Positions 3,066 through 21,832 of a DNA stretch of 41,165 nucleotides are shown piece after piece (position 1 is the first letter of the stretch; each line of letters begins with the position of its first letter). Location of the stretch: the IMG/VR virus record IMGVR_UViG_3300032299_000929, positions 1 to 41,165 of that record. One strand, 5' to 3'. Under the pieces are notes generated by a model. That model was not told the DNA's origin. It made no database searches and was given only the letters and a program-made list of their open reading frames with translations. The translations under genes were made by a program, and so were the position numbers. This stretch comes from a virus.

Positions 3066-3102
3066 TATTTTGTGTGCGTTCCTGTTTAAAATTTCATATC
3101 TG

Positions 3103-3717: not shown

Positions 3718-3726
3718 ATTCTTATT

Positions 3727-5717: not shown

Positions 5718-6987
5718 GAGAGGTTGTAGTATCAGAGTTAAATATATAATGATATAATACCTTTGGAATGTTATATTCTGTTTTTGCTATTTTACAGAGT
5801 TGTTCCAACCAAACCCAATCTTCGGTTTTTGAAATGTCTGGAAATTTCACCTGTTTTGTAATATCGGTGTTCCAAACGCACATGTGAAATGGTTTTCTTT
5901 TTATAACCCCGTTTGGATAATATTCTTCATTTTCATATTTTAAACTAAAAATTATTTTAGATGGTTCGTTTTGATTTATATGAGCAATTTGTTCAAATGT
6001 TACCACATCAACATTGTTATTCTTTTCTAAGGCATTAACAATTTCAAATATATAATCGTTTGAAATATCATCGTCATCGTCTATGAATGTAATATATTTT
6101 CCTTTACAAATATCCAACAAGGATTGTCTTTTTGACCCAACGCTTCGATTTTTATTGTCAACTAATGCCAAAAGTTCAACTTTTTTTTCTGCGCTATGTT
6201 CAACAATTTGATCGTTAATTTTTTTTGTTAATTTTTGAAACGATTCCAATCTTTCTGGAATCCCTAAAAGTAGCACGGAAAATAATATACCATTATTTTT
6301 TTTAATATCAAAATTTCTTTCTTTTCTTCTTTCATACGTCTCTTTATCAACATGAAAAAAAGATTCGTTTTTAACATACAGTTCGTCGTAATTTGTTTTT
6401 TGATAAACAGGGTGTTGGTGTTCAATGATGACTTTATCGGATTTATAACATTTGTTTAAAGCCAAGCTTACGTCTGTAAACTCGTTATCACACCAAAGAC
6501 TGATATATTCGGGGTTGTAAATGTAATTAAATTCATCGTAATATTTTTTTCCCATTATCGATAATGTATTTATATTATTTTGACCGCCATCGGAATACCA
6601 TAAAACACCGTCCATATCTCTAAAATGGTCATTCATATCGCTTCGGATAATGGTGTCATATCCGCGAACAACGGGGATCATATCGTCGGATGCCAACAAT
6701 ACGATGTCCCACCCTGTAACTTTATCCATATCAGCGTTTATTGCTTGAACCTTTGATGTATTGTTTCCGTAAAAATATACAATCTTGACAGCATTACCCC
6801 CCAAATGTTTAAAGTGTTCTCTAACTGGCTCGTTGTTCATGGATGAATCGTCTACATCCATGCTGATTAAAAAGGCAATTCTCGATAAATCATCAGCTTT
6901 ATCGATATATTCTTGCAAGACATTGAAAAATTTCGCAGGTCTTCCGCGAGTCGGGAACTTGATTAAAATTTTAGAATCGGTTTTCAT
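5710..6987 (-). CDS. tandem-domain glycosyltransferase (GT2-like C-terminal domain)
   Basis: A 425-residue two-domain protein. The N-terminal half (about 1-220) starts ILIKFPTRGRPAKFFNVL and has DIVLLASDDMIPV (about 94-106), a GT-A-like DD motif. The C-terminal half (about 235-425) begins FSVLLLGIPERLESF and carries VGSKRQSLLDICKGKYITF followed by IDDDDDISNDYI, the GT2 DxD region, and DISKTEDWVWLEQL, the GT2 acceptor-site ED motif. The C-terminal domain resembles the single-domain protein at 7170-7709 (RSVGTKRNNLL, FIDDDDYISPFY), so the two are probably paralogues. Confidence 0.7.
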   Translation of the reverse strand: MKTDSKILIKFPTRGRPAKFFNVLQEYIDKADDLSRIAFLISMDVDDSSMNNEPVREHFKHLGGNAVKIVYFYGNNTSKVQAINADMDKVTGWDIVLLASDDMIPVVRGYDTIIRSDMNDHFRDMDGVLWYSDGGQNNINTLSIMGKKYYDEFNYIYNPEYISLWCDNEFTDVSLALNKCYKSDKVIIEHQHPVYQKTNYDELYVKNESFFHVDKETYERRKERNFDIKKNNGILFSVLLLGIPERLESFQKLTKKINDQIVEHSAEKKVELLALVDNKNRSVGSKRQSLLDICKGKYITFIDDDDDISNDYIFEIVNALEKNNNVDVVTFEQIAHINQNEPSKIIFSLKYENEEYYPNGVIKRKPFHMCVWNTDITKQVKFPDISKTEDWVWLEQLCKIAKTEYNIPKVLYHYIFNSDTTTSHD

Positions 6988-7165
6988 ATTTTTTATCGAA
7001 ATCTTCCATTATTTTCTGATCATATCGCATTTTCACCAACCGATAACACTCAAACATATATTCTTTTAGACCCATTTTACTCATTTCTGCTTCCATTAAC
7101 CCAAATCGGGTAGAAACACGCTCTTTTCCGTTCGCTATAGTTATTGTTATAAGTTCGTCGTGCAT
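6971..7165 (-). CDS. small hypothetical protein
   Basis: A 64-residue protein rich in Met, Lys and Glu (ANGKERVSTRFGLMEAEMSK...). It fills the space between two glycosyltransferase genes, overlapping the start of the downstream one by 17 bp, which fits a translationally coupled operon gene. No family recognised, no membrane segment, no metal-binding motif. It might be a small partner of the adjacent enzymes, but nothing in the sequence shows this. Confidence 0.55.
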   Translation of the reverse strand: MHDELITITIANGKERVSTRFGLMEAEMSKMGLKEYMFECYRLVKMRYDQKIMEDFDKKYENRF

Positions 7166-7169
7166 TTTA

Positions 7170-7709
7170 TTAATTTGTTGGGTAATAGAAATATAACGGG
7201 TCTATAATATATGTTTCTGTTTTTAATTCTGGTCGTAATCGAACCGAATAATCCATATCTTCATGATATGATATATCTGGAAATCCTACTTTAATAGCAA
7301 TTTCCCGTTTAACCGGATTTAAATGGTTTGGACATCGGTAATATGCGTTATCATCCTCCGACCACTCTTTGTATTTTAAAGAATGAATAAAAAGTTTCGG
7401 TTCTCTTCTCGGCTGAACTATAATACCGCACAATCCGATACAATCTACACCTGTTTCAATCGCTTTTAAAATGTTTGATGTATAAAATGGAGAAATATAA
7501 TCATCATCGTCGATAAAACAAACATATTCTCCCGATGCGTTGTATAATAGGTTGTTTCTTTTTGTTCCGACAGACCGTTCGCCGTTGTCGATATCTGCTA
7601 ATATTTCAACGTTTTCGTTACCTTGTAATTTTAAACATTTAACAAGGTTTTCCAGCAACTGCTTTCTTTTTTCCAAAGCGCAGATTAAAATTGATAGTTT
7701 TTTACTCAT
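7170..7709 (-). CDS. family 2-like glycosyltransferase, single domain
   Basis: A 179-residue GT-A enzyme. Features: KLSILICALEKRKQLLENL at the N-terminus, SVGTKRNNLLYNASGEYVCF then IDDDDYISPFY (the DxD region), and FPDISYHEDMDYSVRL (the ED motif). The frame continues upstream to 7742, but the ATG at 7709 overlaps the stop of the previous gene as ATGA, so it is the likely start. It is short for GT2 and close in sequence to the C-terminal domain of the protein at 5710-6987. Confidence 0.75.
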   Translation of the reverse strand: MSKKLSILICALEKRKQLLENLVKCLKLQGNENVEILADIDNGERSVGTKRNNLLYNASGEYVCFIDDDDYISPFYTSNILKAIETGVDCIGLCGIIVQPRREPKLFIHSLKYKEWSEDDNAYYRCPNHLNPVKREIAIKVGFPDISYHEDMDYSVRLRPELKTETYIIDPLYFYYPTN

Positions 7710-8260
7710 GATAATCGGTATAATCTTTCTACGTTTAAACAAAAATGGAACGCATTTTTCTTCTTCAAACTTAGATATTTATTCATCGTGTCCAAAGTTC
7801 CACCATCTTTCAACTTTTTGCCTTCCCCGAATGTAAATGCCAAAAGAATGTCAGATTTTTCAGCAATATCCGTATTTCTTTCTTTAAATCCTGATCGGTA
7901 AACGGTATCGCAGCGCAAATCTCTTATCGCTGTGCCGATTTCTTCTAAAGAGTCTTTGTTTATAGCCTTAGAAAATTCTTTGTGGTAAAAATTTGCAGTA
8001 TCGGCTATGCCAGCAGTTTTTGATGCAAACTTATTTTTGTCGAATCGGCATGGTAAAAACAAATCATATCCTAGACCTTTGTTGTGTAAAAACATTTCCG
8101 TTGCCAAGCTGTCTGACCATGCCGCACCCCCGCTAACCAATCGATCTGGTTGGTATATCTCTAGAAAAGAATCTGCCACCATAGCCATCGTTTCCCATCG
8201 TGATGGTAGCTCGTATCCATCTTGCCCTCGTCCCGCTGTCCCAATAATCCCTAAATTCAT
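7706..8260 (-). CDS. SLOG/DprA-like Rossmann nucleotide-binding protein
   Basis: A 184-residue protein. LGIIGTAGRGQD (3-14), RLVSGGAAWSDSLATEMFL (about 40-58), then RNTDIAEKSDILLAFTFGEG and GGTLDTMNKYL fit the SLOG superfamily (LOG/DprA/TIR-like nucleotide-binding Rossmann fold), where the GG loops bind a nucleotide or nucleotide-sugar. In phage genomes such proteins are common and mostly uncharacterised. Directly abuts the upstream gene (TAA then ATG) and overlaps the downstream glycosyltransferase by 4 bp. It could supply or sense a nucleotide-linked ligand; this is inference. Confidence 0.6.
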   Translation of the reverse strand: MNLGIIGTAGRGQDGYELPSRWETMAMVADSFLEIYQPDRLVSGGAAWSDSLATEMFLHNKGLGYDLFLPCRFDKNKFASKTAGIADTANFYHKEFSKAINKDSLEEIGTAIRDLRCDTVYRSGFKERNTDIAEKSDILLAFTFGEGKKLKDGGTLDTMNKYLSLKKKNAFHFCLNVERLYRLS

Positions 8261-8956
8261 TTATCGCAAGAGTATAATATGTTTGGCTTCGCTTTGTTTG
8301 GATAATGCGATTGTGTTGTTCAAAGATTCCAGATAAACCGGAGTTTCCATCTTTAAAAATATCGCAAAATCTGTTAATAATTCGACGTATTTCGAATCGC
8401 TGTTGAGATTCCAAATCGAAACATACGAGTGGTCCATATCCTTTTGCTTTGGTATGGCAACACCCGAATATTCAAAATCTAAAATACGGGAATTTGGCTT
8501 TCTGAACTCTTTAACGAAACCGTCAGCGTTTTTCTTTATGACTATTTCGCGTAGCAACAAAGAATGACTGGCGATATCTTTCAAATTGGCATAAAAAAAG
8601 CCGTTGAGTTGTTTGTCTGATATAAAAAGCGTTGATCCGTCAAGATATTCATGTCGGGGATACTCTCTTTTATCCAAGCCGACAATTGTATCAGGATTTT
8701 CGGTCAACATTTTATGACACTCTTTAAGTTGGATATCACTATCTTTTCGTTCGACAACGTGCCAAGTTTTACCGCGAGCGAAACAGACATATCTTCCCAC
8801 TTGCTTAAAATCATTAGCTTCCATCAAATAATCAATCTCTACGACTTCTTCTGGGTTTTCTTCGTTGAAGAAATGGTCAGCAAACATCTTGAAATAATTT
8901 CTGACGTAGAAATTTTCATATACTCGTTCTAATACTTTGGAATCTAAGTCTTTCAT
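8261..8956 (-). CDS. hypothetical protein with tag-like N-terminus
   Basis: A 231-residue protein of unknown function. The N-terminus MKDLDSKVLERVYENFY is similar to those of the unrelated proteins at 10483 (MKDSDSLILEELYENL), 10958 (MRDKDTQLLEEAYTKI) and 28755 (MKYKDHTVLEELYDTI). The rest has no motif I recognise; it is neither a membrane protein nor a coiled coil. Overlaps the upstream glycosyltransferase as ATGA, so it is expressed in the early-type operon, unlike most tagged genes, which sit behind a TAARTA box. Confidence 0.7.
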   Translation of the reverse strand: MKDLDSKVLERVYENFYVRNYFKMFADHFFNEENPEEVVEIDYLMEANDFKQVGRYVCFARGKTWHVVERKDSDIQLKECHKMLTENPDTIVGLDKREYPRHEYLDGSTLFISDKQLNGFFYANLKDIASHSLLLREIVIKKNADGFVKEFRKPNSRILDFEYSGVAIPKQKDMDHSYVSIWNLNSDSKYVELLTDFAIFLKMETPVYLESLNNTIALSKQSEAKHIILLR

Positions 8957-10434
8957 ATTTTTATTTTGTAATGTTTAAAATTTTTTCTCTCATTTACCAG
9001 AGTAACAGAATATCGGGAGATGTCAAGATTACTTATTCCGTTTTTTTGAAAATCCGTCTTCCCAGAAAATTCATCCTCTCGCTTTTGACCATTGATGATA
9101 TGCATGTCGTATTCTTCTGGATTTGTTATTCTCGGTGTGTGTGGAACCGACATATATTGTCCGAATGGATGAGTGTAAACATCCAAACCCACCTTTAAAC
9201 ATCTGTTGTGCAACGCTCGGTCCTCTGATCCCCAACCAACAAAATCGTTCGGGTATCCGTTTACTTTTTGAAAGTGTTCTTTTTGAAAAACAATTACACC
9301 ACCCATCAATGCTGTCGGGTCTTCAACATAATTGAATTGGCTGCAAAATCTGCTGAGATGTGATGGATTTTCGGGATACGAATAATCAGAAAACTCTGGA
9401 AGTAGGTCAACATCGTGGAAACAATAATAGTCTGCATCAGGATTTAGCAAAAATCCTAAATTATTCAGAATTCCTTTGTTGAAAAGATTGTTATCGTCTT
9501 GTTCGACCACCGAAATATCGAAATTTTTGACTTGTTTGGATACATAATCTTCCAATTTTGGTAAGATAAGGTTCAAAGCTGTCTCTCTATCTCTGTATGG
9601 TATGATTATTGAGAGTTTTTTATCAGCGTTTACTGCTTTTTTCTTGGAATATGTCGTTTCCAAGAATTTTAACGATTTTTCAAGACCCTTTATCCCGACA
9701 TCGGGAATTTGGTTGGTGAAATATCCGTGTTTGTTGATAAACCATTTGGCAGACCTTTCCCAATTGTCTTTATATTGGTCTTTGTTTGTGATTGTGGAAT
9801 TCTCATCAGACCCTTCAATGGTTTCAAGGTATTTTTCCGAATCTAAAACATCAGGAAAATACCAAAACGGTGGGCATACGTTGTTTTTTGATAAATTGTA
9901 TTCAAAATCTATGTGTTCGAAGGCATTCATATATTCTTCGTCGAAATATCCAAGTTTTTTGATGATGTTTGCGTTAAAATAGGAAAATGCGCCTTGTGGA
10001 TTGTGATAGAATCCTAAAGCACACCCATTTGGCGCATGGTATTCGTATTTTAATGTTTTTTCGTTCCCTGCTACCTTGAGGAAGTTCAAGTGATGTATGC
10101 CGAATGTTTGGGCGTGTTCGATGTATGCGTCAAAAACATCATCATCCTTGATGATTACGTCATCTTCGATCAAAAATATGTGCTCGCACCCTCTTTCGAT
10201 GAGATTTTTAAGTGCTTGGTTTTTTGCCCAAGCGATTCCTCGTTGTGTTTTACCGTAAATGACAGGATATCCCGTTTGATCGAATTGTCCGGTTGCTGGT
10301 GAAGGAACATACGTGTCTTCGCCGTCATTAACCACCACTAATTTACTAAATCTCCCAAACGGCAGACTTGAATACACTTTCCCGTAATAATCTGGTCTGT
10401 TGTAAGTTAAAAGTCCGACACCGATGCTGCTCAT
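8953..10434 (-). CDS. bifunctional glycosyltransferase: GT2-like plus beta-1,4-galactosyltransferase-like (GT7) domain
   Basis: A 493-residue protein with two GT-A domains. N-terminal domain (about 1-265): IGVGLLTYNRPDYY, GIAWAKNQALKNLIERGCEH, IFLIEDDVIIKDDDVF (DxD region) and FDEEYMNAFEHIDFEY. C-terminal domain (about 270-470): LSIIIPYRDRETALNLIL, VVEQDDNNLFNKGILNNLGF, YCFHDVDLLPE (about 335-345) and GGVIVFQKEHFQKVNGYPND followed by FVGWGSEDRALHNRC. The FNRxxLLNxGF, FHDVDLxP and W(G)WGxEDxD order is the signature of GT7 beta-1,4-galactosyl/GalNAc transferases. First gene of the minus operon, with a leaderless-type promoter. The N-terminal domain is paralogous to the protein at 11743. Confidence 0.8.
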   Translation of the reverse strand: MSSIGVGLLTYNRPDYYGKVYSSLPFGRFSKLVVVNDGEDTYVPSPATGQFDQTGYPVIYGKTQRGIAWAKNQALKNLIERGCEHIFLIEDDVIIKDDDVFDAYIEHAQTFGIHHLNFLKVAGNEKTLKYEYHAPNGCALGFYHNPQGAFSYFNANIIKKLGYFDEEYMNAFEHIDFEYNLSKNNVCPPFWYFPDVLDSEKYLETIEGSDENSTITNKDQYKDNWERSAKWFINKHGYFTNQIPDVGIKGLEKSLKFLETTYSKKKAVNADKKLSIIIPYRDRETALNLILPKLEDYVSKQVKNFDISVVEQDDNNLFNKGILNNLGFLLNPDADYYCFHDVDLLPEFSDYSYPENPSHLSRFCSQFNYVEDPTALMGGVIVFQKEHFQKVNGYPNDFVGWGSEDRALHNRCLKVGLDVYTHPFGQYMSVPHTPRITNPEEYDMHIINGQKREDEFSGKTDFQKNGISNLDISRYSVTLVNERKNFKHYKIKI

Positions 10435-10440
10435 GTAGAT

Positions 10441-10468
10441 ATTTTATCAAAATTTTCAGAAAAATCAA
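10441..10468 (-). promoter_or_regulatory. sigma70-like promoter of the glycosyltransferase-gene 46 operon, leaderless geometry
   Basis: On the minus strand TTGATT (10468-10463), a 16-bp spacer and TAAAAT (10446-10441), then 6 bp, then the ATG at 10434. It abuts the opposite-facing TAAATA box at 10469. Confidence 0.65.
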
Positions 10469-10474
10469 TAAATA
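10469..10474 (+). promoter_or_regulatory. late-type box TAAATA
   Basis: TAAATA then 8 bp then the ATG at 10483. It directly abuts the -35 of the divergent promoter at 10441-10468. Confidence 0.5.
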
Positions 10475-10482
10475 TTTTAAAT

Positions 10483-10914
10483 ATGAAAGATTCGGATAGT
10501 TTAATTTTGGAAGAATTATACGAAAACTTAAATATTGTTTGGGCGCGGGGTGGAGATATTAGAGAAGTTGATGGTCAATGTGGTTACGGTGTTTATTGTT
10601 TTCCGTTTGCAAACAAAGCTATGCTAAATTACTATACAAAAAATGGTGAAATTTTATACATAATACAACCAACGAGTGAAGTTGTGGACACTAGAAGACA
10701 TGTAGAAACAATCATAAAATATGCGAAGATGCAAAACATAAAATGTAACTCCACAGATTATTACAAACAACCGTTCGCGTTAAAAGCTTTTATGTTAAAC
10801 GAATATCCAAACGCTTCTGGATATATTTGCCCACATAAAGGAGAAGGTATCCCAACAGGAATACAGGCAATTTTTGATATCGATAAAATTGATACAGAAG
10901 TATATGAGATGTGA
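10483..10914 (+). CDS. tagged hypothetical protein, possible ADP-ribosyltransferase-like fold
   Basis: A 143-residue protein. N-terminus MKDSDSLILEELYENL is a member of the tag-like family in this window. The remainder shows GYGVYCFPFANKAMLNYY (about 34-51) followed by NGEILYIIQPTSEVVD, and near the C-terminus GIPTGIQAIFDIDKI. A 'GxGvYf...A..Y....G.iL.v' block plus a final 'xQaivfDxxxI' strand is the layout of ADP-ribosyltransferase-like domains in phage and toxin proteins. I do not see a clear catalytic R-S-E or H-Y-E set, so activity is uncertain. Alternative: an unrelated alpha/beta protein. A packaged ADP-ribosyltransferase would parallel T4 Alt. Confidence 0.55.
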   Translation: MKDSDSLILEELYENLNIVWARGGDIREVDGQCGYGVYCFPFANKAMLNYYTKNGEILYIIQPTSEVVDTRRHVETIIKYAKMQNIKCNSTDYYKQPFALKAFMLNEYPNASGYICPHKGEGIPTGIQAIFDIDKIDTEVYEM

Positions 10915-10917
10915 GCT

Positions 10918-10945
10918 ATTTTATCAAAATACCCAACAAAATCAA
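10918..10945 (-). promoter_or_regulatory. orphan duplicate promoter, pointing antisense
   Basis: On the minus strand TTGATT (10945-10940), 16 bp, TAAAAT (10923-10918), identical in elements and spacing to the promoter at 10441-10468. No start codon lies at the expected distance and no minus-strand gene follows, so a transcript would run antisense to the gene at 10483. Confidence 0.4.
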
Positions 10946-10951
10946 TAAATA
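10946..10951 (+). promoter_or_regulatory. late-type box TAAATA
   Basis: TAAATA then 6 bp then the ATG at 10958. It lies in the duplicated upstream segment, abutting the orphan -35 at 10940-10945. Confidence 0.5.
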
Positions 10952-10957
10952 TTTAAT

Positions 10958-11383
10958 ATGAGAGATAAAGATACCCAATTATTAGAAGAAGCCTATACAA
11001 AAATTCTTGCCAAAGAAGAATTTGATGAAGATTTGGTTAGAGGTTCGACAAATATGCCGCACGGACAAGGGTATCCAAACGTTTCAAGCGACGATAATAT
11101 GCAATTGGATGATGTTTTATCAATTGATGACACTGTTTCATATCCAGCATATGTTACGGCATACGACATAACGCGAGAATTTGGCGGTCATGAAGAGGGT
11201 GGGTGGTATTACACAAACTATGCTGTTATCGACACGTATCCCAAACAAGCAAATTCCGAAGAAGAGGTTGTAGCCATTGCGAAAAAAATGTTAAAGATAA
11301 TTGGCGATGTTGACGGAAAGCTTAGAATTTTCGCAGAAAACGAAGTCGGATCGATGGTTTCTGATAGACCGCATTACGAATAA
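10958..11383 (+). CDS. tagged hypothetical protein
   Basis: A 141-residue acidic protein. N-terminus MRDKDTQLLEEAYTKILAKE belongs to the tag-like family. The core contains VTAYDITREFGGHEEGGWYY (about 68-87), an EGGWYY pattern that I have seen in small hypothetical phage proteins but cannot tie to a function. The upstream DNA and first codons resemble those of the preceding gene, so the 5' portions of both genes look duplicated while the bodies are unrelated. It ends 7 bp before the convergent gene at 11391, with no hairpin terminator between. Confidence 0.7.
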   Translation: MRDKDTQLLEEAYTKILAKEEFDEDLVRGSTNMPHGQGYPNVSSDDNMQLDDVLSIDDTVSYPAYVTAYDITREFGGHEEGGWYYTNYAVIDTYPKQANSEEEVVAIAKKMLKIIGDVDGKLRIFAENEVGSMVSDRPHYE

Positions 11384-11390
11384 GAGTTTT

Positions 11391-11738
11391 TTATTCTTTC
11401 GGTTTAATCTTTTTGTTCCAAAAACCTGCTACTAAGATTGCTGTAAGTGTTGTAGCGATTGCGGTAAGAAACCAACCGTTCCAAACCAAAAACAAAACGA
11501 ACGCCGTATCGTAAACAAACGACATCCACGCAGGAACCGATCTTCCTTTTTTTTGAATTTTTTCAATTTCCTCGTCTGGTAAAAAGAAAGAAAGAGAAAC
11601 TAGCGAAAGGACAAACCACGTTACAAACACTAAAACATTTGCTGCTCCCATGCTTCCGTTTACTGCATACCACGCAAGCGCGGCCATTGCCGAATTTGTA
11701 GCGGTCCAATATATTGCTCTTAGTATTATATTTTTCAT
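11391..11738 (-). CDS. small integral membrane protein
   Basis: A 115-residue protein with about three to four hydrophobic segments (roughly 10-29, 33-52, 70-86 and 88-106) separated by a charged loop PDEEIEKIQKKGRS (about 54-67), ending in a Lys-rich tail NKKIKPKE. No enzymatic motif. Last gene of the minus operon from 15210. It might anchor or transport a precursor for the glycosyltransferases, but this is only context. Confidence 0.65.
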   Translation of the reverse strand: MKNIILRAIYWTATNSAMAALAWYAVNGSMGAANVLVFVTWFVLSLVSLSFFLPDEEIEKIQKKGRSVPAWMSFVYDTAFVLFLVWNGWFLTAIATTLTAILVAGFWNKKIKPKE

Positions 11739-11742
11739 ATTT

Positions 11743-12576
11743 TTAAGTTTCTCTATTGTTGTATATGTTTTTCAGAAAGTCAAGACATTCTTTTTCTGAT
11801 ATAAAAGTTTCTGGTGGTCCGTAACCGATAACCACGCTAAAATCGTTCTTCTTGATAAAGAAATCTAAAGCTTTTTGGAAATTTCTCATAAAGGTTTCGT
11901 CTCTGATAACACTATTTTGGTGATCAGGCTTGATATCTTTCAAATACAACTCTGAATCTGCTATATCACAGAACCATCGAAACGGTGAGGTATAGCCTTT
12001 TAAATATGCCTGATACGTATGGTCTACGTGTTCTAAGGCGTTGTAAAAGTTTTCATCCATCAATCCGATACCTTGTATAACGCTTTGGTGGTAGTAGCTA
12101 AACGCACCCAAAAGTTCAGGGTATAGGTTTATAACGGTATCGTCTGGATATTTAATAGATTTTTTAATGGCGGGTTCTCTATTATCATATCTCAAATTGT
12201 GATTGCCGTGCAAAGCAAAGTTAAAATGTTTGATTCCGGTGGATTTGTATGCGTCTATGTATTTTTGAAACACGGCATCGTCAGTTATGACAATATCATC
12301 TTCCATTAAAAATATATGCTCGCACCCGACACGCATCAAAAATTTTAATGCACAATTTTTAGCCTTACCTACACCAATTTTTTTATTGGTTTGGATGTAA
12401 TTGCGAGGAGTTTGGATGTAATTGCGAGGATAGTATGGTAATTCTTCACCATCGTTAATAAGAATGTGTTCAATCCCCAAATGCTCAACGGCTTTCGCCA
12501 CACTTGCCATCGATTCTTTGTAGAATTCGGGCCTATCGCATGTGATTAATCCGATTCCTATTTTATTTTTTTTCAT
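11743..12576 (-). CDS. GT2-like glycosyltransferase, paralogue of the N-terminal domain at 8953-10434
   Basis: A 277-residue protein. IGIGLITCDRPEFYKES at the N-terminus, VGKAKNCALKFLMRVGCEH, IFLMEDDIVITDDAVFQKYI (DxD region), LLGAFSYYHQSVIQGIG and MDENFYNALEHVDHTYQ line up along their length with the N-terminal domain of the protein at 8953-10434 (CEHIFLIEDDVII, FEHIDFEY). A 7-residue tandem duplication near residues 50-63 (RNYIQTP twice) comes from a perfect 21-bp DNA repeat and lies between the first Rossmann strands and the KN motif. The acceptor is unknown. Confidence 0.7.
   Translation of the reverse strand: MKKNKIGIGLITCDRPEFYKESMASVAKAVEHLGIEHILINDGEELPYYPRNYIQTPRNYIQTNKKIGVGKAKNCALKFLMRVGCEHIFLMEDDIVITDDAVFQKYIDAYKSTGIKHFNFALHGNHNLRYDNREPAIKKSIKYPDDTVINLYPELLGAFSYYHQSVIQGIGLMDENFYNALEHVDHTYQAYLKGYTSPFRWFCDIADSELYLKDIKPDHQNSVIRDETFMRNFQKALDFFIKKNDFSVVIGYGPPETFISEKECLDFLKNIYNNRET
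12389..12430. repeat. perfect 21-bp tandem duplication inside a glycosyltransferase gene
   Basis: Two identical head-to-tail copies (12389-12409 and 12410-12430) keep the reading frame and add seven residues. No mismatch between copies, so the event is recent or conserved by conversion. Confidence 0.9.
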
Positions 12577-13204
12577 CTTCTAACTTTTTAATCTTTTCAT
12601 CGATTTCTTCTAGAACCGAATCTTTGTATCTATAAAACATTCCATTGAATATGTTTTTAAGGCTATAAACAAACCTCGAAAGAAGTTCATCGACTGTTGC
12701 GCTTTCAAAAATTTCACCCTTTTTCATGTTGAACAAATAACTGTTTATCCCTGAAAAGGTATAAACAAATTGGTAGAACAAAGATCGGTTGAAAATGTGT
12801 GTATTTCTTTGATTTTTCAAATTCTCCAATTCATTTTCTAAAGTTGCTGGATGATGACCGTAAAGTGCGCCAATATTGTTATATTGAATCAAATTTGCTT
12901 CCTTTTCTCCGGTAGTTTTGTTGACGAACGGAAGTTGGGCAAAAAAGATAACAGGAATTTCCTTCTTTCGAAAGTCTTCCAATACTTTTTCGACGTATTT
13001 GTGTTGGTTTCTCTCTTTTGCGCTCAAAAGGGTGTCGATGATTTTATTTCTTTCAACATCAACCTTTTTTTGTTGTTTTACTCTGTTAGCTTTTGTTGGT
13101 AGTTTCGTTTTTTCTATCGAGTTCTGCAAAATCTCACCACTTTCAGCAAGGAGATTTTTACCATCTTCCAGCATATCTTTATATTTTTCTTCTATATTCT
13201 TCAT
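12563..13204 (-). CDS. hypothetical protein sharing an N-terminal module with the gene at 13483
   Basis: A 213-residue, Lys/Glu-rich, probably helical protein. The first 34 residues (YKDMLEDGKNLLAESGEI, then LQNSIEK) closely match the N-terminus of the 67-residue protein at 13483-13686 (YTDMVEDCKNVLSESDAI, then LQNAMKN). The central part includes VEKVLEDFRKKEIPVIFF and a segment NNIGALYGHHPATLENEL; no known domain recognised. Overlaps the downstream glycosyltransferase by 14 bp. Confidence 0.7.
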   Translation of the reverse strand: MKNIEEKYKDMLEDGKNLLAESGEILQNSIEKTKLPTKANRVKQQKKVDVERNKIIDTLLSAKERNQHKYVEKVLEDFRKKEIPVIFFAQLPFVNKTTGEKEANLIQYNNIGALYGHHPATLENELENLKNQRNTHIFNRSLFYQFVYTFSGINSYLFNMKKGEIFESATVDELLSRFVYSLKNIFNGMFYRYKDSVLEEIDEKIKKLEDEKK

Positions 13205-13215
13205 GTTTTGTTTTA

Positions 13216-13443
13216 TTATAAAATTTGTTCAATTACTCCACCAAATTTTCCACCGTCTCGATAACATTGTATGCAGAAGGCCATATATTCTCTAAATTTG
13301 TTTTCGTCTGTTTTGGAGAATTTTCTTTCTATATATTCCAAGTGTTCAGCACATTCTTGGTGATATTCTTCCAGCACAAAAGAACCGTCTGTTGGTCTTT
13401 TGGTTATTAATAACGGTTTCCATTTTTCTGTTGTTTTATTCAT
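13216..13443 (-). CDS. small hypothetical protein
   Basis: A 75-residue protein (MNKTTEKWKPLLITKRPTDG...). An in-frame ATG lies four codons earlier (13455), but the one at 13443 has the AAAAAT-ATG context seen at most minus-strand starts here. It contains ECAEHLEYIERKF and CIQCYRDGGKFGG; a CxxC is present but no second metal pair. Lies between two genes that share an N-terminal module. Function unknown. Confidence 0.55.
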   Translation of the reverse strand: MNKTTEKWKPLLITKRPTDGSFVLEEYHQECAEHLEYIERKFSKTDENKFREYMAFCIQCYRDGGKFGGVIEQIL

Positions 13444-13482
13444 ATTTTTTTCCATAATCTTTCTGCAAGCCCTCCATAAATT

Positions 13483-13686
13483 TTATTTTGTATTAAGTTC
13501 TTTACTAAAATTTTTCATCCGTTTCAGAATTTTTTCCAATTCTCCGAAAAATTCTTTATCATCGTCAGATGCGCCGTTAGCATCTTTAACGTTTTTCATC
13601 GCGTTTTGCAAAATCGCGTCACTTTCAGAAAGGACGTTTTTACAATCTTCGACCATATCTGTGTATGTTTTTATTTCTTTTTTCAT
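13483..13686 (-). CDS. small protein, N-terminal module paralogue of the gene at 12563
   Basis: A 67-residue protein. Residues 1-34 are about as similar to the N-terminus of the 213-residue protein at 12563-13204 as two diverged copies would be: shared pattern Y-x-DM-x-ED-x-KN-x-L-x-ES-x-x-ILQN. The rest (ASDDDKEFFGELEKILKRM) is charged and helical. It may be a truncated copy that stays in frame, or a stand-alone version of the module. Function unknown. Confidence 0.65.
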   Translation of the reverse strand: MKKEIKTYTDMVEDCKNVLSESDAILQNAMKNVKDANGASDDDKEFFGELEKILKRMKNFSKELNTK

Positions 13687-13691
13687 AATTT

Positions 13692-14084
13692 TTATATTCT
13701 AGGTGCTATGTTATAATATTGCACATCATCAAGAGAGGTTACACGGTTATTTTCATCAACCGTTCCTACGGATGTGGGAGTTATACAAAATGTTTTTGGG
13801 TCGCTTAGAAGTTCTTTTACCACCAAAGCGGTTGTTGTATCTAACAATTTTATATCGATGACTATTCTATCGTTAACAAGTCTAGAATTTTCAACAACTC
13901 CAACAGCATTTGTTAAATCGTTTCCAAGCGTCGAATATAAAAGAACTGGTTTTTTCTTTAGTATATTAAGATTGGTTTTGTTGACTATCTCGTTGATAAC
14001 ATCTTTGCTATAAATTCGACCATTTGCCGTTGGCACATCTGGTTGAATCAGATCGATTGTGTATACAATATCAGGATTTTCCAT
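13692..14084 (-). CDS. prohead-protease-like protein lacking the catalytic residues
   Basis: A 130-residue protein that follows the layout of the gp21-type protease at 40167: ANGRIYSKDVINEIV (about 20-34) matches NNRIYPLEEMVKEV; NDRIVIDIKLLDTTTALVVK (about 71-90) matches the strand-helix with STPMGQIVKSL; GTVDENNRVTSLDDVQYY (about 107-124) matches QLTEKNGKSMVSDFRLVAI. The position of the catalytic His (GELEHP in gp21) reads LYSTLGN, and that of the catalytic Ser (GVSSRALG) reads CITPTSVG. So the fold is probably kept and the protease activity lost. Overlaps its upstream neighbour by 14 bp, far from the head genes. Role unknown; possibly a scaffold- or substrate-binding relic. Confidence 0.6.
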   Translation of the reverse strand: MENPDIVYTIDLIQPDVPTANGRIYSKDVINEIVNKTNLNILKKKPVLLYSTLGNDLTNAVGVVENSRLVNDRIVIDIKLLDTTTALVVKELLSDPKTFCITPTSVGTVDENNRVTSLDDVQYYNIAPRI

Positions 14085-14847
14085 AATTTTTTTGTAAATC
14101 TCCCATGAAAACCATCAAATCTTCTTTGGATATTGTTTCGGTTTCTTCCATGTCGGGAATGTAATTCCATCTGTGCTTGAAATATCCATAAGAAAATCCA
14201 ACGCTTCTGTTTTCAACATCTAACGTGTCGCTGTGATCGATTCTTTCAATCTTTTCTTTTTCGTATGTTGCCACACGACCAACCGTTGTGTGAAATGGAT
14301 GTTTTGGATACATCCCGTTCTTTCTGGCCGTGTTGATGTAGTCCAATACGTCCAAATCTTTGGTGTTGACGTATCTTTCGTCGAAATATCCCAAAGTTCC
14401 CGCGACACCAGACCGAATAAACACAAAATCCGTGTTTAATTTGTTGTTAATCTCCAAACTTTGACCGCTATCGTCATCTAATATGGTTGGTGTTTCGTTG
14501 TTTCCTGTTAAAAACCAAGTTCCGAACGTTTCGGCGGTTTTTATTGTATTTTTAACAAAATCTGGATCGGTAATCGTTACGTTTGAGTTGAGCAAGAATA
14601 TATATTTGACACCCATGCTTCTAAAATGCGCCACACAATGATTTCGTAGTGCCGCCATACTAACTTGGTGTGTAATATGCTTGTTGAACTCAACATCAGA
14701 CGTTTTTATTTTCTTGTTTGATATGATGTATGATGGTGATTGGGCTGCGTCTGAACGAATTACAGATTCAATGCATCGTTTCAGTGACGCATCGCTGTAA
14801 ATGTCCAATATTCCAATTCCAACATCAGTGTTTTTTAAATCTTCCAT
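14071..14847 (-). CDS. degenerate GT2-like glycosyltransferase paralogue
   Basis: A 258-residue protein. VGIGILDIYSDASLKRCIES at the start, MAALRNHCVAHFRSMGVK and YIFLLNSNVTITDPDFV align with the two paralogues at 11743 and 8953, whose equivalents read IFLMEDDIVITDD and IFLIEDDVIIKDD. Here the ED-D metal site is replaced by N-S-N. Later LGYFDERYVNTKDLDVLDYI keeps the FDExY block but loses the (F/L)EH(I/V)D motif. I infer a fold kept without standard metal-dependent catalysis. It could act as a partner subunit. Confidence 0.6.
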   Translation of the reverse strand: MEDLKNTDVGIGILDIYSDASLKRCIESVIRSDAAQSPSYIISNKKIKTSDVEFNKHITHQVSMAALRNHCVAHFRSMGVKYIFLLNSNVTITDPDFVKNTIKTAETFGTWFLTGNNETPTILDDDSGQSLEINNKLNTDFVFIRSGVAGTLGYFDERYVNTKDLDVLDYINTARKNGMYPKHPFHTTVGRVATYEKEKIERIDHSDTLDVENRSVGFSYGYFKHRWNYIPDMEETETISKEDLMVFMGDLQKNYGKS

Positions 14848-16663: not shown

Positions 16664-17344
16664 TTAATTTTCTGGTATAATTCTAACATTTCTGTTCTTT
16701 GTGATTGTATTATAGTTGTCGGCAAACATCAAGAGTTCATCACGATATTTTTCGTGAGTTTCTTGCGTATGCTTTTCTTTTTTGATCCGACAGATAAACG
16801 AATTGAAAGCAATTCGGGTAAAATACGAAAACGGATTGCTCCCTTTGTCGTGCTGGTATTTTTTCCCAATCAAAGCTTTCATCATTTTGACAACTGCATC
16901 ACCGATCATATCATCTTTGTAACTGTAGTTGATGAAGTTTGGACTAAAGCTTAATTTGTTTGCAATTTTTTCCACCATCAAGGCTAATTCGTCTGACATT
17001 ACTCCGGTGTTGTAATATTTTATGATTTCATCATCAAACTCTTTGGGCTGTATATAAAATTTTGCTTTGTCGGGCTTTTTAATCTTATATTTTCTCGCAG
17101 CCTTAACAGGTTTTTCCTCTTCGTCAACAATATCTTCAAGTGCTTCCTCGTCATCATCGAGTTCTTCATCTTCATCTTCGTCAACATCTTCGTCAGAGTC
17201 TTCATCTTTTATTAATGATGAAAGAATGTGATCTTCTTCTGGATGATCGATATCATACAAGACAATCTCCTTCTCAACCTCATGAATTGTTTCTTCATCG
17301 TCGGTTATCAGGTCTTCGATTTTTATTCTTCTTTTTCTTTTCAT
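16664..17344 (-). CDS. 55: gp55-like late-transcription sigma factor
   Basis: A 226-residue protein. The region about 120-200 matches T4 gp55 (185 aa): ANKLSFSPNFINYSYKDDMI, then KYQHDKGSNPFSYFTRIAF, then NSFICRIKKEKHTQE, equivalent to the sigma region-2 segment that contacts the late -10 TATAAATA. Two differences: an acidic extension at the N-terminus (Asp/Glu run about 45-78), and a C-terminus ending ITKNRNVRIIPEN, without the hydrophobic clamp-binding tail (SLDFLYE type) of T4 gp55. The many TAARTA boxes in this window are its plausible targets. ATGA overlap with uvsW. Confidence 0.85.
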   Translation of the reverse strand: MKRKRRIKIEDLITDDEETIHEVEKEIVLYDIDHPEEDHILSSLIKDEDSDEDVDEDEDEELDDDEEALEDIVDEEEKPVKAARKYKIKKPDKAKFYIQPKEFDDEIIKYYNTGVMSDELALMVEKIANKLSFSPNFINYSYKDDMIGDAVVKMMKALIGKKYQHDKGSNPFSYFTRIAFNSFICRIKKEKHTQETHEKYRDELLMFADNYNTITKNRNVRIIPEN

Positions 17345-18765
17345 AAATTTCTTTCTACGTATGGGTAGTTTTCGGCGGTATACAATTCTTTTCTCTTTTC
17401 CTTGTGAATTGCTCCGTAGTAAGTGTTATCCGAGATATCGAAAATTTTTGCGCTTTTCTTTGTCGGATGTTTGCGCAACGATCTACCAATACTTTGAATG
17501 ATTTTGATTTTAGCTTTACCCGCGCTGGCAAAAATGATATTGTGCAAGTTTGGGATGTTAATACCTGTGGAAAATATCTTGCTAACAGAAATAACTATCG
17601 CATCGGTGGTATTTTCCATCAAATTTTTAATTTTTTCACGGTCTTCGACTTCGGTTTCACCTTGAATGAAAAATATTGGGCGGTTGGGTGCTTTATGTGT
17701 TAAATTTTTCAACAAAGCTTCTCCGTTTATCAAACGATCCACCATGATTACAGTATTTCCGTCGAGTTTTGACGCCAAATTAGAAATAATGTTGTTGCGG
17801 TTGGGATTTGTTATCAAATATTTCAATTCCCTCATATATTTCAAGGCTGGTGTTTTTTTATCGCCCGAAAACGTTTTCCCTTTGTGATCGATGTTTAAAA
17901 TATAGATTTTAAAATCAGATACATGCTTTTCATTTTTCAATTCTTCGATTTTTTTCTCGTATAACACCTTTCCGAACTTGCCGATGATGTTCCATTGATC
18001 AATTTTTTCAGACGGCATCGTTCCGGTTAATCCGAATCGGTATGGCGTGTTAATAAATTTGAATACTTTGTTTAAAACGTTCGCTTTTTTATAAACGTGA
18101 ACTTCATCTCCGATAAAAATATCAACATCAGCCAAAACTGACAAGTCTGTGTTCTTCCCTGTTAAATTTTGGGTTCCCGCAACAATAATTTTTGCCGTGT
18201 GGTCCAATTTATTGTCTCCCGACCACTTGGTAATGCTGGTTAACCCGTATTCTTCGAAATCTTTTGATGTTTGCTCAACTAATTGTAGCGTTGGAACGGT
18301 TATTAACACCTTTGCATCGGGTTTTCCTATCGCAGTTCGAATATTTTCGATCAAACCAGCAGTTAAAAGTGTTTTTCCACCACCCGTTCCCACCAACACA
18401 ACACCGTTTCCTGCTTTTACACAGTTTTCTATCGCGTCTTCTTGGTAATCTCGGTATGGAAGGGCTAAATGGACAGAAAGTTGAAATTCTGGGCGTTTAA
18501 ACGAATTTAAATACTGTTTTAAAGCATCCGAAAGCTCATAAGCAAAGGCATACTCTTTTAAAACGTCCAAAACTGCATCTAATAAACCAATATCAAACCT
18601 ACCGCTAGGAGTAATTGCGTATAGTCTCGCGGGAATAAACTTTTTTTTAGAAATATAAGCTGGATTTGGGACCGAAAAAGAATCCCGAATGATTTCCAAC
18701 TCGTTCGCATCTCCAAAAAATTGTAAAAGGCTTCTCTTTTTACCTGAAAAGTCAATTTTTATCAT
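17341..18765 (-). CDS. uvsW: UvsW-like recombination helicase (SF2)
   Basis: A 474-residue SF2 helicase; in T4 UvsW (503 aa) unwinds R-loops and branched DNA and shifts replication from origins to recombination. Motifs: LPYRDYQEDAIE (Q-motif region, about 102-113), VGTGGGKTLL (Walker A, about 125-134), IGDEVH (motif II, about 218-223), FGLTGTM (motif III), TGINIPNLHNIIFAS (motif V) and QSIGRSLRKHP (motif VI). The N-terminal about 100 residues correspond to the UvsW substrate-binding domain. Overlaps uvsY and gene 55 as ATGA on both sides. Confidence 0.92.
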   Translation of the reverse strand: MIKIDFSGKKRSLLQFFGDANELEIIRDSFSVPNPAYISKKKFIPARLYAITPSGRFDIGLLDAVLDVLKEYAFAYELSDALKQYLNSFKRPEFQLSVHLALPYRDYQEDAIENCVKAGNGVVLVGTGGGKTLLTAGLIENIRTAIGKPDAKVLITVPTLQLVEQTSKDFEEYGLTSITKWSGDNKLDHTAKIIVAGTQNLTGKNTDLSVLADVDIFIGDEVHVYKKANVLNKVFKFINTPYRFGLTGTMPSEKIDQWNIIGKFGKVLYEKKIEELKNEKHVSDFKIYILNIDHKGKTFSGDKKTPALKYMRELKYLITNPNRNNIISNLASKLDGNTVIMVDRLINGEALLKNLTHKAPNRPIFFIQGETEVEDREKIKNLMENTTDAIVISVSKIFSTGINIPNLHNIIFASAGKAKIKIIQSIGRSLRKHPTKKSAKIFDISDNTYYGAIHKEKRKELYTAENYPYVERNL

Positions 18766-19157
18766 GTTGTTTCCATTTTTATGAGGTTGACCATGTTTGT
18801 GAAGTCAAAACTCATAGCTGAGAATATCTTTTCGACCCTTTCTAAATAATCGATTATTATTTCTATCTCATCCATCTCTGCTGTTATTTCTTTTATCTTT
18901 TCAGATGATTCGATTTTTGCCTCCAACGCAACTTTTGGAATTTTACTCGGAATGCTTTTGGATATAGACTCCATTACACTGGCCTTTAGCTCGTTTTTTT
19001 TACGTTTAAGCTTATTCAATTGTTTTTTACAGTCGATTAACCGAGCAACCCACTTGTGTTTCAACGCTGGCAACATTAATTGTTTTTCCAGTATGTTCAA
19101 CTGGTCAACTTTAACGTCAGCCTTGATTTCTTCTTTGTATTGGTCTAAAACTTCCAC
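18762..19157 (-). CDS. uvsY: UvsY-like recombination mediator
   Basis: A 131-residue, mainly helical, Lys/Glu-rich protein. Start QYKEEIKADVKVDQLNILEK and the following LPALKHKWVARLIDCKKQL resemble T4 UvsY (137 aa: ...EELKKDVFIDSTKL...KWLNKHSSIKKEM...), which loads UvsX recombinase on gp32-coated DNA. Assignment rests on size, helix pattern and position directly before uvsW, as in T4. GTG start (19157), with a TATAAT 10 bp upstream. First recognised gene of the recombination operon. Confidence 0.7.
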   Translation of the reverse strand: MEVLDQYKEEIKADVKVDQLNILEKQLMLPALKHKWVARLIDCKKQLNKLKRKKNELKASVMESISKSIPSKIPKVALEAKIESSEKIKEITAEMDEIEIIIDYLERVEKIFSAMSFDFTNMVNLIKMETT

Positions 19158-19167
19158 GATGTAAACT

Positions 19168-19195
19168 ATTATACTATACTATTATACAATTGCAA
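19168..19195 (-). promoter_or_regulatory. sigma70-like promoter of uvsY, near-leaderless
   Basis: On the minus strand TTGCAA (19195-19190), 16 bp, TATAAT (19173-19168), then 10 bp and the GTG at 19157. A second TATAAT lies at 19186-19181 without a good -35. Confidence 0.5.
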
Positions 19196-19334
19196 ATTTT
19201 TTAATACTTGACTTTTCCAGAATCTTGGATATTCTATAGAAGGGCGGGAGGGTGGGTATAAATATATAAATTCTGGATACAACTGTATGTATTAAGAATA
19301 CATTCTTAATCTTTTGGTAATATTCCGAATACAT
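19182..19334 (-). CDS. possible 50-residue leaderless ORF upstream of uvsY
   Basis: An ATG at 19334 lies exactly 6 bp after the -10 of a perfect sigma70 promoter and opens a 50-codon frame (MYSEYYQKIKNVFLIHTVVS..., ending KKFAIV). It runs through the inverted repeat and the C-rich complement of the G-quadruplex motif (residues PTLPPF). It has the same promoter-to-start geometry as real genes in this window. Against it: the sequence may instead be part of an origin, and the peptide has no recognised family. Confidence 0.4.
   Translation of the reverse strand: MYSEYYQKIKNVFLIHTVVSRIYIFIPTLPPFYRISKILEKSSIKKFAIV
19208..19235 (+). promoter_or_regulatory. sigma70-like promoter whose start is the G-quadruplex motif
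   Basis: TTGACT (19208-19213), 16 bp, TATTCT (19230-19235), then 6 bp to the first G of the run at 19242. The RNA would begin with four GGG tracts. It points toward the CCA-enzyme gene, 141 bp downstream. Confidence 0.5.
19242..19256 (+). other. perfect G-quadruplex motif, candidate origin element
   Basis: GGGCGGGAGGGTGGG: four GGG tracts with one-base loops, the most stable type of intramolecular quadruplex motif, in an AT-rich intergenic region. It is immediately followed by TATAAATA at 19257-19264, an exact T4 late consensus with no start codon at the usual distance. In T4 the equivalent position (upstream of uvsY) is a replication origin that primes from an R-loop. Confidence 0.8.
19291..19310. 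repeat. 9-bp perfect inverted repeat
   Basis: ATTAAGAAT, 2 bp, ATTCTTAAT. Dyad symmetry between the G-quadruplex motif and the minus promoter, so an operator or a cruciform at an origin is possible. There is no T tract after it, so a terminator is unlikely. Confidence 0.7.
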
Positions 19335-19340
19335 TCTGTA

Positions 19341-19369
19341 ATTATACATATTCTTGCCCGAATTGTCAA
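19341..19369 (-). promoter_or_regulatory. exact-consensus sigma70 promoter
   Basis: On the minus strand TTGACA (19369-19364), 17 bp, TATAAT (19346-19341). ATG of the 50-residue ORF follows after 6 bp, and uvsY lies 180 bp downstream. One base separates its -35 from the opposite-facing TAAGTA box. Confidence 0.85.
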
Positions 19370-19370
19370 G

Positions 19371-19376
19371 TAAGTA
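19371..19376 (+). promoter_or_regulatory. late-type box TAAGTA
   Basis: TAAGTA then 6 bp then the ATG at 19383. Next to the -35 of the divergent minus promoter. Confidence 0.45.
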
Positions 19377-19382
19377 TTTTCA

Positions 19383-21047
19383 ATGTCAAACAAATTTAAC
19401 AGTTTTTTTAAGCGCATAACAGAAAGTCGCATCGAAGTTCCCGATAATCCAATGTATTCTGCGGCGGTTAAGGTATTAAATCGGATCGAAAGCGAATTAT
19501 CAGAAAAGGCTTATATTGTTGGTGGGTGTGTTCGTGATATCATCATGGGCAAAGAGCCAAAAGATGTGGATATCGCATCATCAGCCGATCCTGAACAAAT
19601 ATCTCAAATTTTTAAAACGCATGACATCGGAAAATCCAAAGATTTCGGAATTGTCGTGGTTCAACAAGACGGATTCAGTTTTGAAGTCGCTCAATTCAGG
19701 GAAGATGGAGAATATACTGATAATAGAAGACCTGATAGCGTAAAAGCCGTTAAATCGTTTGAGAAAGACGCTATGCGTAGAGATTTTACGATCAATGCGT
19801 TGGGAATCGACAAAGACGGTGAAATTATAGACTATGTTGGCGGGTTAGACGATTTAAAAAACAAAATAATCAAAGCGGTTGGTGATCCAAAGAAAAGATT
19901 CAAAGAAGATGCTTTGAGAATACTAAGATTGTTGCGATTTGCTGCTAAAACAGGTTTTGATGTGGATGAAAACACTTTAACTAGCGCAACTGAACTTTTA
20001 GACTCGTTACAAACCTTATCAGTAGAGAGAATTCGTGATGAGTTTTTCAAATCGGCGGAAACTGGCGAATCTTTAGCCCGATTCATCGAAAAATTAGACG
20101 AATTGGGAATCCTAGAAAGATTGATACCAGAATTTCACAAAATGAAAGGGTTGAAGCATAATCCAAAGCACCATCCAGAGGGTGGACCATACGAACATAC
20201 TTTATCAGCCTTACGTGCTTCAAAATCGACAAACCCGTTAACAAATTTGGCTGTATTGTTTCACGATTTGGGCAAAACAACCACATTAGGTTATAAAAAC
20301 GACCAACCAACTTATTATGGTCACGAAGCGGCGGGTGTTCCGATATTTAACGGGATAGCTGCACGTTTGAAGTTCTCCAACGATGATAAAGAGGCTATCA
20401 ACTATGCAATAGAGAACCATATGCGCGGTCACAACATCGATAAGATGAACGATAAGAAAATTTTGCAATTACGACACAACAAACATTGGGATTTGCTCAA
20501 AGATGTTATATATTCCGACGAAGCATCCCGATTACACGTATTTGAACCTGAAAAATTCGAAACCAAGATGGGTAAAGTCGAAGATGTGTTGAAAAAGTTT
20601 GAAAACAAACCAGTAAACGAATTTGAAAAACAGATGGGAACGATAATTAATGGTAAAATGATCATGGAACTCTTGCCGAACGTAAAAGGCGAAGAAATTG
20701 GTCGCATTAAAAATGCCGTCAGAGATTGGGTGATCGAAATGGGTATGAAAGTTACACCAGAACAAGTAAAAGAAAAAATCAAAGCTGTAGGAACGATGAA
20801 AGAAAGTTCTTTCAGCAAAAAAGCTGATGAATATTTGGAATACCTTGAGGAAAATTCTGCGGCGGGTGCGATGAGCGTTTTTGGTGACGTTTCGGCAACA
20901 GCAACACAATTTTCCGGTGATCACTACGCACCAAACGATGCAAGAGTTCCGAAAATCTTAGGAAAGGTTCAGAGACGAACATTTCCCGAATTAACAACCG
21001 CCAAAAAGAAAACAAAGAAAAAACGTGGCAAACAAATCAAAAAATAA
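19383..21047 (+). CDS. cca: CCA-adding enzyme / tRNA nucleotidyltransferase with HD domain and extra tails
   Basis: A 554-residue protein. Nucleotidyltransferase head: AYIVGGCVRDIIMGKEPKDV then DIA (about 42-64; GG-x-VRD and DVD metal site), RRDFTINALGID (about 133-144), EDALRILRLLRFAAKTGF (neck). HD domain: HTLSALRASK and LAVLFHDLGKTT (about 276-305). Enzymes of this class repair or add the 3' CCA of tRNAs; some are poly(A) polymerases. Additions outside the family: a short N-terminal segment FNSFFKRITESRIEVP of the type seen on other tagged proteins here, and a C-terminal tail of about 70 residues with DHYAPNDARVPKILGKVQRR and a terminal Lys/Arg run. No tRNA gene was seen in the window. Confidence 0.9.
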   Translation: MSNKFNSFFKRITESRIEVPDNPMYSAAVKVLNRIESELSEKAYIVGGCVRDIIMGKEPKDVDIASSADPEQISQIFKTHDIGKSKDFGIVVVQQDGFSFEVAQFREDGEYTDNRRPDSVKAVKSFEKDAMRRDFTINALGIDKDGEIIDYVGGLDDLKNKIIKAVGDPKKRFKEDALRILRLLRFAAKTGFDVDENTLTSATELLDSLQTLSVERIRDEFFKSAETGESLARFIEKLDELGILERLIPEFHKMKGLKHNPKHHPEGGPYEHTLSALRASKSTNPLTNLAVLFHDLGKTTTLGYKNDQPTYYGHEAAGVPIFNGIAARLKFSNDDKEAINYAIENHMRGHNIDKMNDKKILQLRHNKHWDLLKDVIYSDEASRLHVFEPEKFETKMGKVEDVLKKFENKPVNEFEKQMGTIINGKMIMELLPNVKGEEIGRIKNAVRDWVIEMGMKVTPEQVKEKIKAVGTMKESSFSKKADEYLEYLEENSAAGAMSVFGDVSATATQFSGDHYAPNDARVPKILGKVQRRTFPELTTAKKKTKKKRGKQIKK

Positions 21048-21071: not shown

Positions 21072-21079
21072 TATAAATA
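21072..21079 (+). promoter_or_regulatory. late-type box, exact TATAAATA
   Basis: TATAAATA then 6 bp then the ATG at 21086; identical to the T4 late consensus. Confidence 0.6.
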
Positions 21080-21085
21080 GTTAAT

Positions 21086-21832
21086 ATGGTTATAAAATAC
21101 CCGTTAGAATATATCATAAAAACAAAATTAAATATTTCTTGTGTGTATAAAATTTTGTGTGATACAAATGGTAAGTTTTACATCGGAAGTTCTAAAAATT
21201 TATATAAAAGATTTTTAGAACATTATCGAAATTTAAATAAAAAATTACATGATAATAAAAAATTACAAAATGTATACAACAAATACGGTAAAAGTGCTTT
21301 TTATGTAGAAATTTTAGAAATTTTTGATCCGAATGTGGTGAATTATTTTGATATAGAGCAAAAATATGTGGATAAAAATATAAAAAATAAATTGTGTTTA
21401 AATATTAATCCTATATGCTCAAAACCGCCGATATATAAAGGTAAAAGAAGTATAGAACTGATGAATATTAAAACGGGAAAAATTAAAAAATGGAAATATT
21501 GTTTTTTAGCGGCTAAAGAATTATCCTGTAATCGATCAGATTTGGTTGCAATTTTAAAAGGCGATCAAAAATCTGTGAAAGGATGGTGTTTGGTGGGCGC
21601 AGATATGACCAAAATAGGAAAACAACATAGCGGATATAATACTTGGATATATTTAAAATTTTTAAATGTAACGAGTGGAGAATTGTTAGAATTTCGAAAT
21701 ATTAAAGATGCTGAAAAAAATTTGAAAATATCTAGATTTAAAATTAAAAAAATGATTAAAACCAATTGTGTCATAAAATCTTATCAACTTTTAGAAGTTG
21801 ATAGTTATAAAAATCGATTATCAAATGTCTAA
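21086..21832 (+). CDS. GIY-YIG homing-type endonuclease
   Basis: A 248-residue protein. Nuclease domain about 18-110: VYKILCDTNGKFYIGSS (the GIY..YIG pair), KRFLEHYRNL with the catalytic Arg, NKYGKSAFYVEILE and FDIEQKYVDK with the Glu. Two DNA-binding repeats of NUMOD type follow: MNIKTGKIKKWKYCFLAAKE (about 129-148) and LNVTSGELLEFRNIKDAEKN (about 195-214). It is more AT-rich than the CCA gene before it, typical of a mobile insertion. It has its own TATAAATA box and its stop overlaps the next start by 8 bp. Free-standing, no intron seen. Confidence 0.85.
   Translation: MVIKYPLEYIIKTKLNISCVYKILCDTNGKFYIGSSKNLYKRFLEHYRNLNKKLHDNKKLQNVYNKYGKSAFYVEILEIFDPNVVNYFDIEQKYVDKNIKNKLCLNINPICSKPPIYKGKRSIELMNIKTGKIKKWKYCFLAAKELSCNRSDLVAILKGDQKSVKGWCLVGADMTKIGKQHSGYNTWIYLKFLNVTSGELLEFRNIKDAEKNLKISRFKIKKMIKTNCVIKSYQLLEVDSYKNRLSNV

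Follow-up and report, generated by a model that had tools for sequence, protein, structure and literature searches.

In origins of the ColE1 type, the G-rich RNA II pairs with a C-rich template, and the persistent hybrid primes replication. The CSBII tract of human mitochondria is of the GGG-A-GGGGGG kind. At this site, a hybrid G-quadruplex-stabilised R-loop becomes a replication primer after processing by RNase H1 (PMC6317783). In bacteriophage T4, oriF, i.e., ori(uvsY), consists of a middle promoter, in which a MotA box replaces the -35 element, and an AT-rich DUE, and it forms R-loops that are unwound by the helicase UvsW (PMC3016281). R-loop origins at uvsY in T4 and primers stabilised by G-tracts are each already known; the literature searched, a body with most subscription journals outside its coverage, yielded no phage that combines the two.

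The DNA analysed here (the window) comprises positions 1 to 41,165 of IMG/VR record IMGVR_UViG_3300032299_000929, a fragment of an uncultured T4-like phage. It encodes gp46/gp47-like nucleases and, at its right end, a gp20-like portal protein and a prohead protease; a long minus-strand cluster (2277-14847) contains several glycosyltransferase-like and methyltransferase-like proteins, as judged by eye from the translations. The intergenic region of interest lies between uvsY and a divergent plus-strand gene for a tRNA nucleotidyltransferase fusion protein. The uvsW gene adjoins uvsY in the same operon, and both are located on the minus strand together with a gp55-like gene. A T4-like R-loop origin containing a perfect G-quadruplex motif had been predicted for this region, and all features named in this original prediction are present in the sequence. 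The genes and signals are as follows.

16664-17344, minus strand: gp55-like late sigma factor (PHROG 234)
17341-18765, minus strand: uvsW-type DNA/RNA helicase (PHROG 16, ResIII/Helicase_C)
18762-19157, minus strand: uvsY recombination mediator (PHROG 231, PF11056)
19168-19196, minus strand: uvsY-proximal promoter-like site TTTGCA-17-TATAAT, with TTTG-type counterparts in relatives
19208-19213, plus strand: TTGACT box; TTGAC is kept 31-34 nt before the G-tract in all modules of the clade
19228-19233, plus strand: GATATT, -10-like, 14 nt after the TTGAC box; the geometry recurs in relatives
19230-19235, plus strand: TATTCT, alternative reading of the -10 element, 16 nt after TTGACT
19242-19256, plus strand: G-rich tract GGGCGGGAGGGTGGG on the RNA-like strand of rightward transcription, with counterparts in all clade members
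19257-19290, plus strand: AT-rich stretch that follows the G-tract and melts easily, a candidate unwinding element
19257-19264, plus strand: TATAAATA, within the AT-rich stretch
19291-19310, no strand: 9-bp inverted repeat ATTAAGAAT-AC-ATTCTTAAT with a 2-nt loop
19341-19369, minus strand: exact TTGACA-17-TATAAT promoter-like site reading towards uvsY
19370-19376, plus strand: GTAAGTA, T4-late-promoter-like, just before the divergent start codon
19383-21047, plus strand: small uvsY-divergent gene with a fused-in tRNA nucleotidyltransferase (PHROG 2244, PF01743)

With T4 oriF, the site shares a T4-like phage background, the position at the upstream edge of uvsY, a promoter-type box 14 nt from a -10 element, an adjoining AT-rich melting stretch, and a phage-encoded UvsW helicase. 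Specifically, the spacing in the oriF sequence (TGCTTC-14-TATAAT) equals that of five modules of the clade described below, including the one in the window. However, sequence comparison revealed no G-run at this place in T4, which has a MotA box where a TTGAC box is found here. Furthermore, whereas the T4 primer is the uvsY transcript, the candidate RNA at this locus is G-rich, leads away from uvsY, and often belongs to tandem modules, with the G-rich strand and the box pointing away from uvsY in all clade members. Since the uvsY transcript as primer is a defining feature of the oriF type, the element is not assigned to that type. The place, the box-14-(-10) layout, and the AT-rich stretch fit the predicted T4-like origin; the direction, which is opposite to that of the T4 primer, does not support it. 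Searches for the RNase H, gp59, and MotA families gave no matches in these incomplete fragments, and the control genomes were silent, too. A G-rich non-template tract downstream of a promoter is shared with human mitochondrial LSP/CSBII; there, however, transcription is terminated by the tract, which begins only after ~100 nt of transcript, whereas the phage tract lies at the predicted 5' end, in a different context and without homology. Similarly, G-rich RNA on a C-rich template favours a persistent hybrid in ColE1 RNA II, but the latter is a plasmid system with a long structured pre-primer and a hybrid near the 3' end.

Signals in the uvsY-divergent gap

The arrangement of four GGG runs with 1-nt loops in GGGCGGGAGGGTGGG occurs only once in the 41 kb and was obtained by chance in 1 of 300 first-order and in 0 of 300 third-order Markov shuffles, confirming the rarity that had been claimed for a GGG-rich run. 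The tract is also the top G4Hunter window of the 41 kb, and in duplex stability the 34 bp following it fall within the lowest 2.5% of all 34-bp windows.

The accompanying signals of the original prediction were all present, but several of them are weaker than had been suggested. The plus-strand promoter TTGACT-16-TATTCT matches the consensus in 9/12 positions, which is within shuffle expectation. The octamer TATAAATA after the G-run is common (5 occurrences in the window vs 3.7 expected), and the same holds for 9-bp inverted repeats (8 vs 3.65 expected), the one at 19291-19310 being probably incidental. The exact minus-strand promoter is rarer, with 0.11 expected per window, but has no evident counterpart in the intergenic sequences of the relatives. 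An interpretation of TATAAATA after the tract as a late promoter was rejected, as the exact sequence is found only in the window and in L003 and the shared motif is TAAGTA, which is invariant next to the divergent start codon in five aligned clade members. A further copy of TATAAATA (21072-21079) is located just upstream of a gene for a GIY-YIG family protein, likely a homing endonuclease (21086-21832). T4-type late motifs were enriched in 257 upstream regions from the window and the G004, G006, G007, and G008 loci, with 36 ATAAATA (6.0 expected) and 25 ATAAGTA (1.5 expected); the distance from their end to the start codon is most often 5-9 nt, so that many late mRNAs would be nearly leaderless.

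The cumulative GC-skew of the window has its minimum at 18-19 kb. It was rejected as origin evidence, because the turn follows gene orientation and thus provides no independent replication signal; third-position skew, split by strand and side, showed no leading-strand effect.

The divergent gene encodes a small conserved protein that starts with NKFNxFFxRI.. and ends with NSAGG..SVFGDV.., and in the window (19383-21047) a tRNA nucleotidyltransferase is apparently inserted into it in frame. In L007 (2569-2805), the small protein stands alone, and in L003 (2290-2841) a partial remnant is left, including the region matching residues 390-538; these forms suggest gain and partial loss.

The promoter/G-tract module in close relatives

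Five members of the clade were found, in three lineages: the window; L003; and L007, L008, and L009. Four records with identical intergenic sequence (L003-L006) were counted as one lineage, and L002/L019, being 100% identical to the window over the stretches compared, are not independent. The other clade members have UvsW proteins with 57-65% identity to that of the window. A nucleotide search of named phages yielded no match to this DNA, identity to the closest uvsW and portal sequences of such phages being about 30-34%, and a genome-contig scan found no relative.

Loss of the G-run in related phages had been named as an outcome that would speak against an origin. Instead, every close relative found carries a G-rich tract at the same place and in the same orientation: all five clade members have tracts in the uvsY-divergent gap, which is wide in these phages, and the G residues are always on the strand that reads away from uvsY. 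L003, L007, and L009 have two tracts each, L008 and the window a single one. In dozens of wider relatives (uvsW ~54% identity or less) the tract is absent and the gap is narrow; as these possess the same genes, such phages do not require the tract. The tract bearers form one group in the UvsW tree with a support of 100/99, and the module therefore probably arose once and persisted, although its flanks have become too different between the three lineages to be aligned reliably. Exact matches to GGGAGGGGGGNGGGTTT were found 10 times among 2.9 million viral contigs; three are from this clade, and the other seven contigs contained no uvsY in the stretch retrieved, with three of them inspected and recognised as unrelated.

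In all eight modules, the TTGAC box is positioned 31-34 nt before the tract, and five of the eight have a GATAAT-like element 14 nt downstream of the box (TTGACA-N14-GATAAT, TATAAT, GATACT, or GATATT, and TTGACT-N14-GATATT in the window); the pattern TTGACA-N14-GATAAT-N5..8-GGG recurs. The second modules of L003, L007, and L009 have the same box, spacing, and orientation. For a sigma-70 promoter, 14 nt is an unusual spacer length, and elsewhere in these phages TTGACA promoters tend to have spacers of 16-17 nt. The geometry resembles that of a middle-type promoter, and the module may function as one. The combination of TTGAC box and G-tract is confined to this locus in every clade contig searched, including one of 83 kb, and the tract was consequently rejected as a general promoter feature. 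Between two modules, L007, L008, and L009 contain a near-invariant block, TACTGTTA..TTTTAT..TCTGTTAAC (about 13290-13331 of G006, minus strand), seen only in these three members; the block lies upstream of the second TTGAC box, and the CTGTTA repeated within it is possibly a protein-binding repeat.

The rigid box spacing, the tandem copies, and the MotA-like geometry would also suit a binding site, in the TTGAC box and/or the G-tract, for a phage regulator that controls the divergent uvsY promoter pair as a middle-promoter or repressor-type switch, with nucleic-acid structure being irrelevant. We regard this as improbable: the combination is found at no other promoter, and the tract sequence varies (GGGCGGGAGGGTGGG, GGGAGGGGGGCGGG, GGGAGGCGGACGGGGTGGAGG) with its G-richness kept, so that structure or composition fits better than a fixed protein site.

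What is conserved is not a strict G-quadruplex. Only the window has four GGG runs, the tracts of the relatives (GGGAGGGGGGCGGG and similar) having fewer, and the perfect three-tier quadruplex was rejected as a conserved property; the relatives retain G-richness alone. Judged from this comparison, the property kept by selection is G on the RNA-like strand. Such a pattern is more easily reconciled with RNA:DNA hybrids and hybrid quadruplexes, for which, as at CSBII (PMC6317783), fewer G-runs per strand suffice, than with an intramolecular DNA quadruplex. RNA quadruplex prediction was strong only for the window and L003b. For the window tract it reached -44.0 kcal/mol vs -11.6 kcal/mol without quadruplex, a very strong value that would favour a 5' RNA quadruplex protecting the early mRNA or controlling its translation. 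Such a function is nevertheless quite improbable, as most relatives have weak two-tier quadruplexes and one module has none, and the upstream tract of tandem modules is far from the gene. Even taken jointly, cis-regulatory roles other than a transcription-enhancing R-loop appear unlikely.

Hybrid tendency and the candidate origin

The tendency to form RNA:DNA hybrids was scored for 15-mers on both strands by comparing RNA:DNA with DNA:DNA nearest-neighbour energies, using the published values of Sugimoto 1995 and SantaLucia 1998. In five clade contigs of 20-83 kb (the window, G006, G004, G007, and G008), the tract was the rank 1 hybrid-favouring 15-mer of either strand, and in three clade contigs the second tract copy ranked 2 or 3. 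Equally extreme scores were reached in 5 of 200 third-order shuffles of the window and in 0 of 100 of the 83-kb contig. Nothing comparable was present at this locus in the two wider relatives checked; the top G-rich site of one wider relative (G011, 11237) was set aside, as it is located inside an ORF and lacks a TTGAC module. The stable R-loop originally expected of a G-rich 5' RNA is in agreement with the ranking, in which the tract is the strongest predicted R-loop site of the clade contigs. Two or more G-runs lie on the non-template strand downstream of the putative promoter, and R-loop initiation is known to depend on clustered non-template G near a start site (Roy and Lieber 2009, as cited in PMC12137161).

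That the tract is a chance G-rich sequence without function might be suspected from the perfect G-quadruplex in a single clade member, but this reading is close to refuted and highly improbable, given that all clade members retain the tract at the same location despite the divergence of the flanks and is the rank 1 hybrid site in five contigs.

In vitro, a G-quadruplex sequence on the non-template strand increases RNA output via successive R-loops if it is located downstream of the start site (PMC7341879). The position and strand of the tract would fit such an enhancer, in which an R-loop or G-quadruplex formed by the non-template G-tract raises the rightward transcript, the module not being an origin. 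We consider this rather unlikely, though less so than a regulator site. The downstream gene has its own late-type motif beside the start codon, so that late mRNA would not need the tract; elsewhere in the clade this gene encodes a small protein without assigned function; and no other promoter in these contigs has a tract.

Of the functions considered, the most likely one, put forward tentatively, is that of an R-loop origin, the element representing a clade-specific promoter/G-tract module that favours R-loops. In the mechanism that we infer for such an origin, the promoter, with its TTGAC box 14 nt from the -10-like element, would start RNA at or next to the G-tract, and the G-rich 5' end of this RNA would pair unusually stably with the C-rich template. 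By analogy with mitochondrial CSBII, the displaced G-rich strand, alone or together with RNA, may fold into a (hybrid) G-quadruplex that keeps the loop open, and melting of the AT-rich stretch just downstream would expose DNA for the replisome. As proposed from T4 oriF, the RNA would prime leading-strand synthesis early in infection, here rightwards and away from uvsY; late in infection, the R-loop would be removed by UvsW, whose gene belongs to the uvsY operon. Overall, the predicted origin is partly supported by G-tract conservation, locus, hybrid rank, and layout, but has to be revised with respect to the perfect G-quadruplex, the minus-strand promoter, and the T4 direction. The UvsW gene in the same operon and the late-type motif of the divergent gene also favour an origin, whereas the direction opposite to the T4 primer, the missing G-run in T4 oriF, the tract's absence from wider relatives, and the lack of GC-skew support count against it. 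It is conceivable, with more reservation than for the origin function as such, that this phage lineage evolved, independently of mitochondria and ColE1, an origin in which a promoter and a G-tract lock the primer RNA to its template via a hybrid quadruplex; such an origin would point away from uvsY, and several members would have a tandem duplicate of it.

Apart from T4 itself, T4-like phages have hardly any mapped origins, and in T4 there is little sequence similarity between oriF and oriG. With a short element that is conserved, specific to one locus, and predictive of R-loops, origins of uncultured phages could be recognised in their sequences, and if the module is indeed an origin, it would be a convergent case of the mitochondrial CSBII mechanism.
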